Positions 11,454-39,115 of a DNA stretch of 64,000 bases are shown piece by piece. Positions within the stretch are counted from its first letter, which is position 1. The number at the start of each line of letters is the position of its first letter. This stretch comes from Ancylobacter gelatini (GTDB lineage: Bacteria; Pseudomonadota; Alphaproteobacteria; Rhizobiales; Xanthobacteraceae): contig NZ_JAKVIL010000004.1 in assembly GCF_022601675.1 (NCBI RefSeq), forward strand, positions 186,001 to 250,000, given 5' to 3'. The notes beneath the pieces are model-generated. The model saw only the letters and a list, made by a program, of their open reading frames with translations, ran no database searches and had not been told where the DNA came from. A program made the position numbers and the translations under genes.

Positions 11454-11468
11454 GAACACAAAAAGAAC
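11454..11468. promoter_or_regulatory. SOS box of lexA (perfect alphaproteobacterial form)
   Basis: GAACACAAAAAGAAC is an exact GAAC-N7-GAAC direct repeat, the reverse-strand form of the GTTC-N7-GTTC LexA site known from alphaproteobacteria. It lies 78 bp before the lexA start, as expected for autoregulation. Confidence 0.88.
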
Positions 11469-11479
11469 GGATATGGTTT

Positions 11480-11494
11480 GTTCGTGATTTGTTT
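11480..11494. promoter_or_regulatory. Second, one-mismatch SOS box at lexA
   Basis: GTTCGTGATTTGTTT matches GTTC-N7-GTTC except for the last base. It lies 12 bp from the perfect box and in the opposite orientation, between it and the lexA start. It may be a second, weaker LexA site. Confidence 0.5.
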
Positions 11495-11545: not shown

Positions 11546-12241
11546 ATGCTCACCCGCAAACAGCATGAGCTGCTTCACTTCATCAATGAACGCCTGAAGG
11601 AGACCGGCGTCCCGCCCTCCTTTGAGGAGATGAAGGAAGCACTGGATCTCCGGTCGAAGTCCGGCATCCATCGTCTGATCACGGCGCTGGAAGAGCGCGG
11701 CTTCATCCGCCGCCTTCCCAATCGTGCCCGGGCGCTTGAAGTCATCCGCCTTCCCGAAGCGACGCAGGCGCCCCGCGCCGCGGCGCGCCAGTTCGCCCCG
11801 AGCGTCATCGAAGGCAGCCTCGGCCGCGTGCCCCCGCAGAACGAAGAAGATGGCGGCCGTCCGATCCCGATCCCGGTGATGGGCCGCATCGCCGCCGGCA
11901 CGCCTATCTCGGCGATTCAATCGCGGGACCACACCATTTCCATGCCGCCGGAAATGCTCTCCGCCGGCGAGCATTTCGCGCTCGAAGTGCGCGGCGATTC
12001 GATGATCGAGGCTGGCATTCTGGATGGCGACCTCGCTCTGATCCGCAAGAGCGACAGCGCCAATACTGGCGACATCGTGGTCGCGCTGATCGATGACGAG
12101 GAAGCCACGCTGAAGCGCCTGCGCCGCAAGGGCGCCTCCATCGCGCTGGAAGCCGCGAACCCGGCCTATGAGACCCGCATCTTCGGCCCCGACCGCGTGC
12201 GCATCCAGGGCCGGCTGGTCGGGCTGTTCCGCCGCTACTGA
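11546..12241 (+). CDS. lexA: SOS response repressor LexA
   Basis: Represses DNA-damage genes and cleaves itself when RecA is activated. The 231 residues comprise an N-terminal winged helix (residues 1-65, with [20 protein letters not shown]) and a C-terminal S24 protease domain. The cleavage bond is Ala117-Gly118 in GRIAAGTP. The nucleophile is Ser152 in RGDSMIEAG and the general base Lys190 in EEATLKRL. Two SOS boxes upstream indicate autoregulation. Elsewhere in the window, perfect boxes occur at the micro-gene near 35.6 kb. Convergent with comEC. Confidence 0.97.
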
Positions 12242-31990: not shown

Positions 31991-34900
31991 TCAGTGCGCC
32001 TCGACCGCCACCACACCGGGCACCGCCTTGATGGCGCCGGCGATCTGGGGGGAGAGGCTGAAGCGGCCGGGGAGCTTGACCTCGACCTCGGTTGCCCCGC
32101 TCTCGCCGAGCAGCAGCACGAAGGCGACCTCGCCATCACCCCGCCCGCCGGCCAGCGAGCCAAGGCGGGAGGCGACGCTGTCCAGCGGCTCCGGGGAGCG
32201 CAGGAAGATGCGCAGGCCCTTCTGCATCTTGGCGGCGGCCTCGTCGAGCGGCTCGCAGTTCTGGATGCGCGCGCGCACATCCTCGCCCTGCAACTCGGCC
32301 GCGACATGCAGCAGCAGCGCCCGGCCCGGCTCCAGCAAGTCGCGGAACTGGTTCAGCGTCTCGGAAAACAGCACCGCCTCGAACTGGCCGGATGGATCGG
32401 ACAGGCCGACAATGCCCATCTTGTTGCCGGTCTTGGTGCGGCGCTCCTGCTTGCTCACCACGGTGGCCGCGAGACGGCCATAGCCGTGGCCGGCGCGGAC
32501 GGAGCGCTGGAAATCCATCCAGCGCTGCACGCGGAACCGCTCCAGTGCCTTACCGTACTCATCGAGCGGGTGGCCGGTGAGAAAGAAGCCGATGGCGTCG
32601 TATTCCTTCTGCAGCTTTTCCGCAGGCAGCCAGGCCTCGACATTGGGAATGCGCAGGCTTGCCGCGGCGGATGGACCGCCAAACATGTTGCCCTGCCCGA
32701 GCGCCACCTCGGCCCCCGTTGCCGCGGCATGGCCGAGCACGCCCTCGACCGCGGCAACAGCCCGGGCGCGGTTCGGCTCCAGCGCGTCGAACGCGCCGGC
32801 ATTCACGAGACTTTCCATGGTGCGCTTGTTCAGCGCCTTGGCATTGATGCGCGAGGCGAAATCGGCGAGGTCCTTGAACGGCTTGTCGCCGCGCGCCTCG
32901 ACGATGGCGTCGACCGCCTGCACGCCCACGCCCTTGATGGCGGCGAGCGCATAGAGGATGCGCCCGTCCTTCACCGCGAATTCGCGGCCGGAATGGTTCA
33001 CCGACGGCGGCACCACCTCGATGCCGAGCCGCTGCGCATCCTGGCGGAATTCCGCAAGCTTGTCGGTGTTGCCCATGTCGAGCGTCATCGAGGCGGCGAG
33101 GAATTCGGTGGGGTAGTTCGCCTTGAGATAGGCGGTCTGGTAGGACACCAGCGCATAGGCGGCGGCGTGGCTCTTGTTGAAGCCGTAATCGGCGAACTTC
33201 GCCAGCAGGTCGAAGATCTCCGACGCCTTGGCCTTGGGCACGCCGCGCTCGATGGCGCCGTCGACGAAGCGCTCGCGCTGCTTGTCCATCTCGGCGCGGA
33301 TCTTCTTGCCCATGGCGCGGCGCAACAGGTCCGCTTCGCCGAGCGAATAGCCCGACAGCGTCTGCGCGATCTGCATCACCTGCTCCTGGTAGATGATGAC
33401 GCCGTAGGTCTCCTTGAGGCTGCCTTCCAGCGCGGGATGGGCATAGGCGGCCTGTTCCTGCCCGTTCTTCACCGCGCAATAGACCGGGATGTTGGCCATC
33501 GGACCCGGCCGGTAGAGCGCAACCAGCGCGATGATGTCCTCAAGCCGGTCCGGCTTCATGTCCACCAGCGCCCGGCGCATGCCCGCGCTTTCCACCTGGA
33601 ACACGCCGACCGTCTCGCCGCGCGTCAGCATGGCGTAGGATTTCGCATCGTCGAGCGGGATGGTGGAGAGGTCGACCTTGATACCGCGCTGGGCAATGAG
33701 GCGTACGGCGGTCTGCAGCACGGTGAGCGTCTTGAGGCCGAGGAAGTCGAACTTCACCAGCCCGGCCTGCTCGACCCACTTCATGTTGTACTGAGTCACC
33801 GGCATGTCGGAACGCGGGTCTCGGTACAGCGGGACCAGCTTGGCGAGCGGGCGGTCGCCGATCACGATGCCGGCGGCGTGGGTCGAGGCGTGGCGGTTCA
33901 GCCCTTCCAGCCGGGTGGCGATGTCGAAAGCCCGCTTCACCACCGGGTTGGCGTCGCTCTCGGCCTGGAGCTTGGGCTCGTCGCCGATGGCCTGCTTCAG
34001 CGAGATCGGGTTGGCCGGGTTCTGCGGCACCAGCTTGCACAGCTTGTCGACCTGGCCATAGGGCATTTCCAGCACGCGGCCGACGTCGCGCAGCACGCCG
34101 CGCGCCTGCAGCGTACCGAAAGTGATGATCTGCGCCACCTGATCGCGCCCGTAGCGCTGCTGCACATAGCGGATCACCTCGTCGCGCCGTTCCTGGCAGA
34201 AGTCGATGTCGAAGTCCGGCATCGACACGCGCTCGGGGTTCAGGAAGCGCTCGAACAGCAGGCCGAAGCGCAGCGGATCGAGGTCGGTGATGGTGAGGGA
34301 ATAGGCCACCAGCGAACCCGCGCCCGAGCCGCGCCCCGGCCCCACCGGAATTCCTTGCGCCTTCGCCCACTTGATGAAGTCCGACACGATGAGGAAGTAG
34401 CCGGGAAACTTCATCTTCTCGATGATCGACAGCTCGAAGGCGAGCCGGTCCTCATAATCCTTCACGGTGAGGCCCGTCGCCGGGCCGTGGACCGCGAGGC
34501 GCGCCGCCAGCCCCTCCTCCGCCTGGACGCGCAGTTCCTCGGCCTCGTCGCGGTCGAAGGTGAAACGCGGCAGGATCGGCTTCACGGTGCGCGGGCGATA
34601 GGCGCAGCGCCGGGCGATCTCGACCGTGTTGGCAAGCGCCTCCGGCAGGTCGGCGAACAGTGCTGCCATCTCGGCGCGGGTGCGGAACCGGTGCTCCGGC
34701 GTGAGCTGGCGGCGGTTGTCCTCGGCCACCAGCTTGCCTTCGGCGATGCAGATCAAGGCGTCATGCGCCTCATAGTCTTCCTGTGTGGCGAAGAACGGCT
34801 CGTTGGCGGCGACGATGGGCAGTTCGAGCCGATAGGCGAGGTCCAGCAGTCCCGCCTCGACGCTGCGCTCCTCGGCGGTGCCGTGGCGCTGCAGTTCGAC

Positions 34901-35425
34901 ATAGAGGCGATCGCCGAACATCTCAGCCAGCGTGACGAGCCGCTGCTCGGCCACATCGGCGCTGCCGGCGGCGATCGCGCGGTCGATCGGCCCGCCGGGT
35001 CCGCCGGTGAGCGCGATGAGCCCGTCGTTGATCCCGTGCAGCCAGTCCGCCTTGATGTGCGGCGCGCCGTCCGAGGCCGTGTCGAGGAAGGAGCGCGAGA
35101 CCAGCGCGATCAGATTGGCCCAGCCGGTCTCATTGGCCGCCAGCAGCACGAGGCGCGGGCGCTGGACGTTCAGCCCGCCGCGCCCGGACTGGTCGGCGAA
35201 ATCGATGGCGAGCGCGCAGCCGAGAATCGGCTGGATGCCGGAGCCGGCGAGCTTCTCGGAGAATTCCAGCGCGCCGAACAGATTGCCGGTGTCGGTCAGC
35301 GCCAGTGCCGGCTGGTGATCCTTTTTGGCGAGGTCGGCGAGCTTGGCGATGGAGAGCGCGCCCTCGAGCAGCGAGAACGAGGAATGGACGTGAAGATGGA
35401 CGTATCCGGGATCGGTTGCGGCCAT
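31991..35425 (-). CDS. dnaE: DNA polymerase III alpha subunit
   Basis: Catalytic subunit of the replicative polymerase. Of 1144 residues, the N-terminal PHP domain starts YVHLHVHSSFSLLEGA. The polymerase core carries the catalytic aspartates in MPDFDIDFCQERRDEVIRYV, preceded by GPGRGSGAGSLVAYSL. The tail holds a helix-hairpin-helix (AIKGVGVQAVDAIVEARG), an OB-fold and the clamp-binding region. The ATG at 35425 is chosen because AGGAG lies at ideal distance; an ATG two codons earlier is too close. The SOS-type micro-gene lies upstream on the same strand. Confidence 0.97.
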   Translation of the reverse strand: MAATDPGYVHLHVHSSFSLLEGALSIAKLADLAKKDHQPALALTDTGNLFGALEFSEKLAGSGIQPILGCALAIDFADQSGRGGLNVQRPRLVLLAANETGWANLIALVSRSFLDTASDGAPHIKADWLHGINDGLIALTGGPGGPIDRAIAAGSADVAEQRLVTLAEMFGDRLYVELQRHGTAEERSVEAGLLDLAYRLELPIVAANEPFFATQEDYEAHDALICIAEGKLVAEDNRRQLTPEHRFRTRAEMAALFADLPEALANTVEIARRCAYRPRTVKPILPRFTFDRDEAEELRVQAEEGLAARLAVHGPATGLTVKDYEDRLAFELSIIEKMKFPGYFLIVSDFIKWAKAQGIPVGPGRGSGAGSLVAYSLTITDLDPLRFGLLFERFLNPERVSMPDFDIDFCQERRDEVIRYVQQRYGRDQVAQIITFGTLQARGVLRDVGRVLEMPYGQVDKLCKLVPQNPANPISLKQAIGDEPKLQAESDANPVVKRAFDIATRLEGLNRHASTHAAGIVIGDRPLAKLVPLYRDPRSDMPVTQYNMKWVEQAGLVKFDFLGLKTLTVLQTAVRLIAQRGIKVDLSTIPLDDAKSYAMLTRGETVGVFQVESAGMRRALVDMKPDRLEDIIALVALYRPGPMANIPVYCAVKNGQEQAAYAHPALEGSLKETYGVIIYQEQVMQIAQTLSGYSLGEADLLRRAMGKKIRAEMDKQRERFVDGAIERGVPKAKASEIFDLLAKFADYGFNKSHAAAYALVSYQTAYLKANYPTEFLAASMTLDMGNTDKLAEFRQDAQRLGIEVVPPSVNHSGREFAVKDGRILYALAAIKGVGVQAVDAIVEARGDKPFKDLADFASRINAKALNKRTMESLVNAGAFDALEPNRARAVAAVEGVLGHAAATGAEVALGQGNMFGGPSAAASLRIPNVEAWLPAEKLQKEYDAIGFFLTGHPLDEYGKALERFRVQRWMDFQRSVRAGHGYGRLAATVVSKQERRTKTGNKMGIVGLSDPSGQFEAVLFSETLNQFRDLLEPGRALLLHVAAELQGEDVRARIQNCEPLDEAAAKMQKGLRIFLRSPEPLDSVASRLGSLAGGRGDGEVAFVLLLGESGATEVEVKLPGRFSLSPQIAGAIKAVPGVVAVEAH

Positions 35426-35526
35426 GTTCATTCTCCTGCGACTCAGCTGGCGCCGATGGTGGACACCGGCGCCGCCCGCGTCCACCGCCGCGCACGGGCA
35501 TCCCCGTTGTCCTCAGGCGCGGCGCG

Positions 35527-35625
35527 TCAGACTCCGGTGAACACGCCCGCCCAGGTCCCGATCATCGCGATGAACAGACCGATGGACGCGAGCGCGGCAG
35601 CTTCTTCGAGAAGGATGCGGATCAT
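35527..35625 (-). CDS. SOS-box-controlled 32-residue membrane micro-protein
   Basis: Not a recognised family. The peptide begins MIRILLEEAAALASIG and ends MIGTWAGVFTGV. It has a short amphipathic start with Arg3, Glu7 and Glu8, then one hydrophobic helix from about residue 9 to the end. GGAGG lies five bases before the ATG, an unusually good ribosome binding site. The promoter reads TTGACC, 17 bases, TAATGT, and a perfect GTTC-N7-GTTC LexA box abuts the -10; a second box lies upstream. The design matches SidA of Caulobacter, a 29-residue SOS-induced inner-membrane inhibitor of division, but homology is not claimed. Expression in DNA damage and a division role are inference. Confidence 0.75.
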   Translation of the reverse strand: MIRILLEEAAALASIGLFIAMIGTWAGVFTGV

Positions 35626-35638
35626 GTCGACCTCCATG

Positions 35639-35653
35639 GAACATATGGAGAAC
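35639..35653 (-). promoter_or_regulatory. Perfect SOS (LexA) box of the micro-gene
   Basis: The reverse strand reads GTTCTCCATATGTTC, an exact GTTC-N7-GTTC direct repeat. It lies directly downstream of and partly overlaps the -10 element and ends 13 bases before the start codon, so LexA binding would block transcription. Confidence 0.85.
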
Positions 35654-35680
35654 ATTATGCCCGCAATCCCCAGAGGTCAA
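35652..35680 (-). promoter_or_regulatory. Predicted sigma-70 type promoter of the micro-gene
   Basis: On the reverse strand TTGACC (35675-35680) is followed after 17 bases by TAATGT (35652-35657). An alternative reading of the -10 is CATAAT with a 15-base spacer. Transcription would begin inside or just after the adjacent SOS box. Confidence 0.6.
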
Positions 35681-35685
35681 CGAAT

Positions 35686-35700
35686 GTTCCTCTTTCGTTC
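35686..35700 (+). promoter_or_regulatory. Second perfect SOS box, upstream of the -35
   Basis: GTTCCTCTTTCGTTC on the plus strand is an exact GTTC-N7-GTTC. It lies 6 bases upstream of the TTGACC element and in the opposite orientation to the first box, 47 bp away. The only gene it can serve nearby is the micro-gene, since lolD ends at 35737 and reads towards it. Confidence 0.75.
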
Positions 35701-35736
35701 TTGACTATGGTTTCCGACAGCCTAACGCCGGACGCC

Positions 35737-36426
35737 CTATTCCAGCTCGACGATATGCCCATCCTGCAGCGTCACGCGGCGGTGCATGCGATAGGCGAGA
35801 TCGAGATTGTGCGTCGCGATAACCGCCGCGAGCCCGGTTGCCTCCACGAGTTGCGACAGCGCGCCGAACACATGGTCCGCGGTGTGGGGGTCGAGATTGC
35901 CGGTGGGCTCGTCCGCCAGCAGCACGCGCGGCGCGTTGGCCACGGCACGGGCGATGGCGACGCGCTGCTGCTCGCCGCCGGACAGTTCGCCGGGGCGATG
36001 GTCGAGACGCTTGGCGAGGCCGAGATAGCTCAGAAGCTCGGTGGCGCGCTTGGTGGCCTCGCGCTTGGGCAGGCCGCGGATCATCTGCGGCAGCATCACG
36101 TTCTCCAGCGCGGAGAACTCAGGCAGCAGATGATGGAACTGGTAGACGAAGCCGACATCGGTGCGGCGGATGCGCGTGCGCTCGGCATCGCCCAGGCCGG
36201 CGGTCGGCTTGCCGGCGATGTACACCTCGCCGGCGTCCTGGTGCTCCAGCAGGCCGGCAATATGCAGCAGCGTCGACTTGCCGGTGCCCGAGGGCGCGAC
36301 CAGCGCGACCGACTGACCCTCCAGCACCGAAAAATCCGCGCCACGCAGGATGTCGAGCGTGGCGTCGCCTTGCGGATAGCGACGCTCGACGCCTTGCAGT
36401 CGAAGGGCGGCCGATGGCACGGGCAA
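35737..36426 (-). CDS. lolD: Lipoprotein-releasing ABC transporter ATP-binding protein
   Basis: Powers release of outer-membrane lipoproteins from the inner membrane. The 229-residue ATPase has Walker [13 protein letters not shown], a Q-loop in [16 protein letters not shown] typical of the MacB/LolD family, signature [14 protein letters not shown], Walker [13 protein letters not shown] and a switch His in IATHNLDLA. It begins with a TTG, or a GTG two codons later, five bases after the permease gene. Confidence 0.95.
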
Positions 36427-36431
36427 GGATC

Positions 36432-37769
36432 CTATTCGTAACGGAGCGCTTCCACCGGATCGAGGCGCGCGGCGCGCCAGGACGGGTAGAGCGGAGCGAG
36501 GAAGGAGAGCACCAGCGCCATGATGACGACGGTCGCGGTCTCGCCGGCATTCATCTCGGCGGGCAGGCGCGAGAGGTAGTAGAGCTCGGGCGAGAACAGC
36601 TCGGTGGCGGTGAGCCAGGAAATGAACTGGCGGATCTCCTCGACATTCAGGCAGACCACCAACCCCAGCACGAAGCCGGCGAAGGTGCCGACCACGCCGA
36701 TGGCCGCGCCGGTGACGAGGAAGATGCGCATGATCGCGCCGCGCGTGGCGCCCATGGTGCGCAGAATGCCGATGTCGCGCCCCTTGTCCTTCACCAGCAT
36801 GTTGAGGCCGGAGACGATGTTGAACGCCGCCACCAGCACGATCAGCGTGAGGATGAGGAACATCACGTTACGCTCGACCTGGAGCGCATTGAAGAAGGTG
36901 GCGTTTCGCTGGCGCCAGTCGACGATATAGATCGGTCGTTCCGCCGCCGCATGGACCAGCGGCCGGAACGCGTCCATGGCGTCGGCATTGTCGGTGTAGA
37001 CCTCGATGGCGGTGACGTCGCCATCCTTGTTGAAATAGGCCTGCGCCTCGGGCAGTGGCATGAACACGAAGGCGCTGTCATATTCCGACATGCCGATCTC
37101 GAACACCGCCGCGATCTTGTAGTTCTTGATGCGCGGCGTCGTGCCCATGGGCGTTACCGCGCCGCGCGGAGCGACCAGCGTGATGCTGTCGCCGGCCCGC
37201 AGCGAGAGCTGGTCGGCGAGGCGCTTGCCGATCGCGACCCCCTCCCCGCTGTCGAAGCCCTCCAGCGTGCCCTGCCGGATGTTGCTGCCGATCGAGGGCA
37301 GCTCGCGCAGATCCTTTTCCGAGATACCGCGCACCAGCACGCCGCCAGCATTGAAGGGCGATGACGCCAAGGCCTGCCCCTCGATCAGCGGCACGGCGAA
37401 TTTCACGCCCGGCACGCCGGCGATGCGCTGCGCGACCGCCTCGTAATCGGTGAGCGGGCCATCGAGCGGCTGGATCAGCATATGGCCGTTGAGGCCGAGA
37501 ATCTTGGACAGAAGTTCGGTGCGGAAGCCGTTCATCACCGCCATGACGATGATCAGCGTCGCCACGCCAAGCATGATGCCGAGAAAGGAGAACCCGGCGA
37601 TGACCGAGATGAAGCCTTCCTTGCGGCGCGCCCTCAGATAGCGCAGCGAGAGCATCCATTCATAGGCACTGAACGGCCGGGTTCCGCCAGCCTCACGCGG
37701 GGCAGCGGCTTTTGCCGCCTTGCCGCGGGACCTGTCCGGCGTCGCGCCGGATGCGCTCTTTGCTGCCAT
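36432..37769 (-). CDS. lolC: Lipoprotein-releasing ABC transporter permease (LolC/LolE family)
   Basis: Membrane partner of LolD. About 445 residues: a Lys/Ala-rich N-terminal tail, one helix near [20 protein letters not shown], a large MacB-like periplasmic domain, and three C-terminal helices. [20 protein letters not shown] and [18 protein letters not shown] are conserved. Only one permease gene is present, as in most alphaproteobacteria, so it probably forms a homodimer. The start is set at the ATG at 37769, because GGAGAACGC precedes it. An ATG at 37796 that overlaps the proS stop (ATGA) is the alternative. Confidence 0.94.
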
Positions 37770-37792
37770 GCGTTCTCCGCCGCGCGGGGCGT

Positions 37793-39115
37793 TCATTCGA
37801 GAATCTGGGCAAGCGCCGCCGCGATCGGCAGCGTCTCGCGATGACCGTCGGCGCGGCGCTTCAATTCCACCGTGCCGTTCGCCAGCCCTTTCGGACCGAC
37901 GATGATCTGCCAAGGCAGGCCGATCAGGTCGGCGGTGGCGAATTTGGAGCCGGGCCGCTCGTCGGTATCGTCGTAAAGTACGTCGACATTGCGGGCGACC
38001 AGCTCGGCATAGATGGTCTCGCAGGCGGCATCGGTGGCGGCATCGCCCACCTTGAGGTTCAGCAGCCCGACCCGGAACGGCGCGATGGCCTCCGGCCAGA
38101 TGATGCCGTTCTCGTCATGCGAGGCCTCGATGATCGCGGCGGCGAGGCGCGAGGGGCCGATGCCATAGGAGCCCATGTGCACGGGGCGCTCCACGCCGTC
38201 CGGCCCGGTGACCTTGGCGCCCATCGGCTCGGAGTACTTGGTGCCGAAATAGAAGATGTGCCCGACCTCGATGCCGCGCGCCGAAAGCTGGCTGCCCTGC
38301 GGCACCGCCTCGAAGGCCTCGCGGTCGTGCTTCTCCTCGGTCGCGGCATACAGGCTGGTCCAGCCGTCGACGATGGTCTGCAACGCCTTCGGATCGTCGA
38401 AATCGACGCCGGCATCTGGGGTGGCCATGTTGAGATAATCGGCGTGGCAGAACACCTCGCTCTCGCCAGTCGAGGCGAGAATGATGAATTCGTGGCTGTG
38501 ATTGCCGCCGATCGGCCCGGTATCTGCCACCATCGGAATCGCCTTCAGCCCGAGCCGGGCGAAGGTGCGCAGATAGGCGACGAACATGCGGTTATAGGCC
38601 GTGACCGCGCTCTCGAAGTCGAGGTCGATCGAATAGGCGTCCTTCATCAGGAATTCGCGCGAGCGCATCACGCCGAAGCGCGGGCGGACCTCGTCACGGA
38701 ACTTCCACTGGATGTGGTAGAGGTTCAGCGGCAGGTCCTTGTAGGACTTCACATAGGCGCGAACGATCTCGGTCAGCATCTCCTCATTGGTCGGCCCGAA
38801 CAGCATGTCGCGTTCGTGGCGATCCTTGATGCGGAGCATTTCCTTGCCGTAATCGTCATAGCGCCCGCTCTCGCGCCACAGATCGGCCGACTGGATGGTC
38901 GGCATCAGGATCTCGATCGCGCCCGCCCGGTTCTGCTCCTCGCGCACGACGTTGCAGATCTTGTCGAGCACGCGCTTGCCCAGCGGCAGCCAGGCATAGA
39001 TCCCCGCGCTCTCCTGCCGGATCATCCCGGCGCGCAGCATCAGCCGGTGCGAGACGATCTCTGCTTCCTTCGGGACTTCGCGGAGGATGGGAAGGAAATA
39101 GCGGGAGAGGCGCAT
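37793..39115 (-). CDS. proS: Prolyl-tRNA synthetase, short alphaproteobacterial type
   Basis: Class II synthetase of 440 residues. E. coli ProS has about 570 because of an editing insertion between motifs 2 and 3; that insertion is absent here. Motif 2 is in [20 protein letters not shown] and motif 3 in [17 protein letters not shown]. Editing of mischarged tRNA-Pro would need a free-standing deacylase elsewhere. The ATG gives [15 protein letters not shown]; the preceding TTG is unlikely. lolC overlaps or closely follows. Confidence 0.96.

Follow-up and report, generated by a model that had tools for sequence, protein, structure and literature searches.

A short LexA-box-associated gene upstream of dnaE in Ancylobacter gelatini probably encodes a strongly diverged relative of the Caulobacter division inhibitor SidA

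To our knowledge, how rhizobia and their relatives halt cell division after DNA damage is not settled. The closest described system is that of Caulobacter, in which division is blocked after damage by SidA, a 29-residue inner-membrane peptide with FtsW and FtsN as interaction partners (PMC4211646). Caulobacter cells lacking lexA filament due to the constitutive expression of sidA (PMC12700426). The genes yneA, divS, chiZ and sidA have been called unrelated (PMC4211646), and in the sections of the literature available here, SidA is treated as a Caulobacter peptide (PMC13384398, PMC9578287, PMC4117421). No work on this SidA outside Caulobacter was found among the open-access papers listed, which is no proof of absence.

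The window, that is, the whole stretch of A. gelatini DNA that was analysed (64,000 nucleotides), contains a small gene between a lolD-type gene and dnaE1, all three on the minus strand, and, further away, a presumed LexA repressor gene. The relevant features are:

11454..11468, minus strand: exact LexA-type box upstream of lexA, ending 77 nt before the lexA ATG at 11546
11546..12241, plus strand: lexA, presumed repressor (open reading frame; PF01726 match with an E-value of 1.8e-17 at G000:C15:197549, which is window position 11549)
31991..35485, minus strand: dnaE1, replicative DNA polymerase III alpha; the mechanical reading frame opens at 35485, the likely start is the ATG at 35425 (MAATDPGYVHLHVHSSF)
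35527..35625, minus strand: gene for a 32-residue SidA-type membrane peptide, ATG at 35625, stop codon ending at 35527; encodes MIRILLEEAAALASIGLFIAMIGTWAGVFTGV
35631..35635, minus strand: Shine-Dalgarno sequence GGAGG, read directly, 5 nt from the peptide ATG
35639..35653, minus strand: LexA-type box 2, GTTCTCCATATGTTC, an exact GTTC-N7-GTTC that shares the final two bases of the -10
35652..35680, minus strand: promoter TTGACC (35680-35675), 17 nt, TAATGT (35657-35652), read directly, with a weak -10
35686..35700, minus strand: LexA-type box 1, GAACGAAAGAGGAAC, an exact GAAC-N7-GAAC just upstream of the -35
35737..36426, minus strand: lolD-type ABC ATPase gene upstream of the peptide gene, from the list of reading frames

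The name lolD is one that we presume from the ATPase signature and a LolC-like neighbour at 36432-37913. The first-pass annotation had described a small reverse-strand frame with a well-spaced GGAGG, and direct reading confirmed both, with 32 residues followed by a stop codon and a gap of 5 nt. Residues 9-32 of the peptide are uncharged, and this composition suggests that it would form a single helix inserted in the membrane. An in-frame ATG further upstream would extend the peptide to 42 residues, a start that was rejected because conservation in the genus begins only at MIR; the genus alignment also has a stop codon in the upstream part of this longer frame in some relatives, for instance L002, L003 and L008. 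The window peptide has no match in Pfam, where ten related peptides gave a single match below the cut-off, and it retrieved no match from either phage or plasmid records. The sole Rfam match in the window is a tRNA.

An earlier claim placed a promoter, TTGACC-17-TAATGT, in front of the gene with a perfect GTTC-N7-GTTC box at its -10. The promoter motifs are present; however, TAATGT agrees with TATAAT at only three of six positions and a strict sigma-70 consensus scan of 35300-35900 reported no promoter, so that the -10 has to be regarded as weak and the -35-like motif is the conserved part. The box likewise stood, overlapping the -10 by two bases, but the second exact box upstream of the -35 had gone undescribed. 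Two of the three exact boxes of the window flank the peptide promoter and the third precedes lexA. Three boxes compare with 1.2 expected, a number reached by 14 of 100 shuffles, and the box count alone is therefore weak evidence; boxes with one mismatch number 44 versus 37 expected. Across the host genome, 101 exact boxes are found versus 34 matches to the reversed pattern, which means that perhaps a third of the exact matches are to be expected by chance. The same type of box precedes recA (box at G000:C10:612271-612285, RecA match at 612418). We take GTTC-N7-GTTC to be the LexA site of alphaproteobacteria, which agrees with the position of boxes before lexA and recA. Upstream of lexA, a second box with one mismatch lies at 11480-11494, a pattern that fits the expected autoregulation. 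Together, the box positions provide good support for control of the peptide gene by LexA, with predicted LexA binding and predicted induction.

The peptide was found in 37 of the 61 genomes searched, among them 29 of the 30 genomes counted as belonging to the own or same genus. The frame is kept in all 29 aligned genus loci, with the stop codon of L014 lying two codons later, and each of these loci also carries both exact boxes, GAAC-N7-GAAC and GTTC-N7-GTTC, at a distance of 46 or 47 nt, together with a Shine-Dalgarno-like GGAG, GGGA or AGGA and a TTGA or TGGA that resembles a -35 motif. The conserved frame, ribosome binding site and SOS boxes for which the first-pass annotation had proposed to look are thus present in relatives. 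Synonymous-biased change, set beforehand as a test of the frame, was found as well: over 27 distinct coding sequences of the genus, pS is 0.39 and pN is 0.11 (pN/pS 0.28), and third codon positions are the most variable. This pattern supports purifying selection acting on the predicted peptide frame. In L026, three exact LexA-type boxes instead of two are located at -86, -58 and -40 before the peptide start.

When 18 related peptides were used as direct queries against the class, 5 of 385 genomes gave a match at E<=0.01. Those in G000, G421 and G249 adjoin dnaE on its upstream side; the other two (G221 and G099) lie inside long frames and look like chance. Because direct sequence search fades beyond the genus, the DNA upstream of dnaE was read instead, using the rule that an exact 7-spaced box lies within 600 bases upstream of dnaE and is followed within 110 bases by a frame that starts with ATG, codes for 24-48 residues and includes a hydrophobic stretch. 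The rule was positive in 50 of 108 order genomes (110 were sampled, two of which gave no dnaE match), in 16 of 99 class loci (a non-random set of 99 of the 360 genomes with a dnaE match, comprising the 30 best E-values, 40 listed matches and 29 picked by hand) and in 28 of 78 named loci (those with enough upstream sequence among the best 80 of at least 592). Five class loci also belong to the order set, and L248 and G009 are one and the same place. Decoy spacings of 4, 5, 6, 8, 9 and 10 gave 0-3 positives in the order set, 0 in the class set and 0-1 in the named set, the reverse strand gave 0 in each, and 50 rounds of randomised sequence, generated as chains resampled from the dinucleotide steps of each region and not as exact shuffles, gave means of 0.0, 0.02 and 0.0, respectively.

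A hidden Markov model (HMM) built from the 50 order peptides was run on 1,296 further upstream reading frames and recovered 17 more at 9.8 bits or above, the next frame scoring 6.5. Eleven of these additions belong to the order set. By the two tests combined, 61 of the 108 order genomes, more than half, carry a member of the family to which the window peptide belongs (a count that leaves out L104, which was seen by eye), and 47 of the 108 have no such gene upstream of dnaE by either test. An exact box was present within 150 bases for 3 of the 17 additions and a box with one mismatch for 11; for the remaining 3, none was among those listed. Outside the order, the exact box and reading frame occur together in 12 of 94 class loci, or in 13 once starts other than ATG are counted. 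Among the named carriers are Bradyrhizobium, Tardiphaga, Stappia, Devosia, Bauldia, Maricaulis, Hellea, Sneathiella, Phenylobacterium and Brevundimonas; among the best 80 of at least 592 named loci, none from Rhodobacteraceae, Acetobacteraceae or Azospirillum was positive by the rule.

Several comparisons bear on whether these peptides are homologous or merely hydrophobic. All ten Caulobacteraceae peptides score 9.8-26.1 bits on the HMM from the 50 Rhizobiales peptides, none of 300 shuffles of each peptide reaches the score of the real sequence, and the best of 661 decoys, hydrophobic segments that were taken from long frames irrespective of reading frame and so in part come from spurious frames, scores 7.2 bits. 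Half of the ten Caulobacteraceae peptides (L154, L170, L222, L224 and L227) had failed the automatic filter and were first chosen by eye; all five were later recovered by the HMM among the 1,296 reading frames. On the reverse HMM, which was built from the ten Caulobacteraceae peptides, the 99th decoy percentile is passed by 20 of the 50 order peptides and the 95th by 26, and the window peptide reaches 7.0 bits, a score equalled or bettered by 1 of the 661 decoys. Alignment of the two groups by hhalign over 32 columns gave a P-value of 1.5e-5 with a probability of only 57%. The core of the 50 order peptides consists of an acidic residue at position 8 (45/50), Phe 18 (44/50) and Trp 25 (35/50); the Caulobacteraceae peptides share the acidic residue and the phenylalanine and carry their tryptophan elsewhere. 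Homology of the window peptide to SidA beyond mere hydrophobicity is well supported by these profile comparisons, more weakly so in the reverse direction.

The NCBIfam model of SidA, NF033228 (cut-off 35 bits), recognises dnaE-upstream peptides of Caulobacter (L222, 60.2 bits; L224, 55.9 bits), Phenylobacterium (L225, 58.0; L226, 65.8) and an uncultured member of the Caulobacteraceae (L221, 59.6) as well as that of G416 (44.3). Below the cut-off, the dnaE-upstream peptides of two Brevundimonas loci score 25.3 and 23.9, those of L154 and L170 reach 23.5 and 20.5, and the peptide of A. polymorphus (G009/L248) reaches 13.2 bits with an E-value of 0.067. The window peptide gave no match at E<=1 or at E<=10, falling short of the at least 35 bits that membership requires, and is therefore called a variant and not a formal SidA member. 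Searched over 385 genomes of the class, the model matched 136 at E<=1, with a single match over the cut-off, the dnaE-upstream peptide of G416; it also matched 7 of 14 control genomes, one of them over the cut-off, so that weak matches carry little meaning. The host genome's own match (E 0.39) is located at C10:5792, away from the window peptide. Besides SidA, the ten related peptides matched the NCBIfam models SCO2097 and YmiC, both below the cut-off.

Sequences at the dnaE-upstream locus hence grade from full SidA to peptides that the model does not recognise. Since the Caulobacter peptides at this place match the SidA model, sidA itself adjoins dnaE. Gene numbers agree with this: in the text available, Caulobacter sidA is CCNA_02004 (PMC10769358), dnaE is CC1926 (PMC1839093) and recN is CCNA_02062 (PMC12700426); recN is also CC1983, and the resulting offset of 79 would put dnaE at or next to CCNA_02004. 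The position upstream of dnaE, which is common to the peptides of L221, L222, L224, L225, L226 and G416, is also that of the window peptide; to regard it as a trait that defines SidA is our own reading and not a published definition. The original suggestion of a SidA-like SOS peptide has accordingly gained from selection, boxes and locus, but what was proposed as an analogue for this lineage now appears to be a diverged relative, and one that the SidA model does not match.

Homology, position and regulation make it most likely that the window peptide acts like SidA. We consider it probable that the peptide is a positional, strongly diverged SidA relative, which would be repressed by LexA and brake septation via FtsW/FtsI/FtsN after DNA damage, with the FtsW complex as presumptive target taken over from SidA. 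LexA bound to the two boxes would shut the promoter, and DNA damage would open it through RecA-driven cleavage of LexA. The peptide would then insert into the inner membrane and keep the septal synthase FtsW/FtsI/FtsN inactive, so that division waits for repair. One FtsW/RodA-type protein was found in the host genome, which is taken to be FtsW. The presence of only this one family member suggests that RodA is missing.

Other readings of the locus have to be weighed against this one. An SOS-induced membrane peptide could have a different job, be it depolarisation and dormancy as for TisB, or membrane repair or modulation of the envelope. Other functions are known for small hydrophobic peptides of similar length that the SOS response induces, TisB being one example, and the tail around the tryptophan differs from that of SidA; however, pore-forming peptides are expected to be amphipathic, which does not fit the uncharged stretch of the window peptide, and the shared R/K-D/E-x-x-A-L...F core together with the sidA locus points to SidA, making a different job unlikely. 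A chance origin of the reading frame and boxes was rejected and retains next to no probability: three exact boxes in 64 kb are not rare, but the conservation and substitution pattern in the genus, the order-wide counts of box plus reading frame and the homology seen with the HMM all speak against it.

The LexA-type promoter might also serve mainly dnaE, in which case the short reading frame would be a leader and damage would raise the level of polymerase III alpha by read-through. The reading frame precedes dnaE in the same direction in all detected carriers except L109, no terminator-like site was found on the minus strand of 35300-35900, and of the 27 named loci that have the peptide and 1.7 kb or more of upstream sequence, 10 show no lolD motif in that sequence, yet their peptide still adjoins dnaE. 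What is conserved, however, is the amino acid sequence and not merely an open reading frame, the distance to dnaE ranges between roughly 30 and more than 300 nt, and the gene of L109 is oriented away from dnaE and has its two boxes directly ahead of its own start. Moreover, dnaE is not named in the available main text of a study on the Caulobacter SOS response (PMC12700426). A leader function is thus considered even less likely than a different job of the peptide.

Longer and additional forms of the peptide occur. In family f11, which comprises three genomes of the order sample, the SidA-like stretch makes up the C-terminal end of a larger frame of 103 or 116 (L104), 93 (L109) or 114 residues (L183), whose start lies no more than about 40 bases from an exact box. 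Some genus members possess a second related peptide elsewhere that has no exact box in the 300 bases upstream, and a ProQ-type gene lies just upstream in 6 of 9 paralog loci examined. In L031, L032, L041, L042, L043 and L044, such box-less SidA-like paralogs are located near position 2000, with a ProQ/FinO-type gene upstream. Ten reading frames around the paralogs, in three of the stretches L337-L340, include repressor-like, HipA-like, DUF5131 and DNA-clamp genes, which suggests that the surroundings are mobile islands. One island paralog gave no match in phage records, and a pattern search for the ProQ-like neighbour in viral contigs yielded 15 matches, none of which was confirmed.

It is tempting to speculate, although we hold this only tentatively, that SidA, instead of being peculiar to Caulobacter, is the one conspicuous case of an ancient checkpoint module of alphaproteobacteria, in which a fast-evolving LexA-controlled membrane peptide is inherited together with dnaE, so that the division brake and perhaps the supply of replicative polymerase as well depend on a single SOS promoter. 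Family f11 would seemingly have made the peptide the membrane tail of an SOS protein of 93-116 residues, and the box-less island copies next to a ProQ-type gene in some Ancylobacter-group genomes would perhaps arrest host division on their own terms. If the reading of the window peptide as a SidA-like brake is right, a damage checkpoint of many rhizobia and their relatives has been overlooked because the gene has only about 32 codons and its sequence drifts quickly. This reading provides gene targets in non-pathogenic species, Bradyrhizobium included, and it raises the question why a division brake should be tied to the gene of the replicative polymerase.

SulA, the division inhibitor that acts on FtsZ, has the same physiological role as that proposed for the window peptide. 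By description, this likeness extends to YneA, SosA and other SOS division inhibitors (PMC4211646, PMC6851548, PMC13396833, as far as their available text goes). Closer in its target is the Caulobacter protein DidA, likewise a small membrane inhibitor that acts on the FtsW/FtsI/FtsN complex; it differs, again by description, in its length of 71 residues and in being SOS-independent (available text of PMC4211646). The closest counterpart is SidA. Like the window peptide, it is a very small membrane peptide with a presumably single helix, encoded immediately upstream of dnaE behind a promoter with exact or one-mismatch LexA-type boxes, and both share a core in which a basic residue or Glu/Gln is followed by Asp/Glu, x-x-A-L-x-S and a phenylalanine. 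The window peptide has 32 residues, whereas SidA has 29, and its gene carries two exact boxes flanking the promoter, in contrast to the one-mismatch boxes of Caulobacter L222 and L224. The boxes of these two loci and of Brevundimonas L227, whose peptides are SidA or close to it, read GAAC-N7-CAAC. Finally, the conserved tryptophan follows the conserved phenylalanine after seven residues in the window peptide but after two in SidA, and this shift implies that the surface with which the window peptide would meet FtsW may differ from that of SidA.
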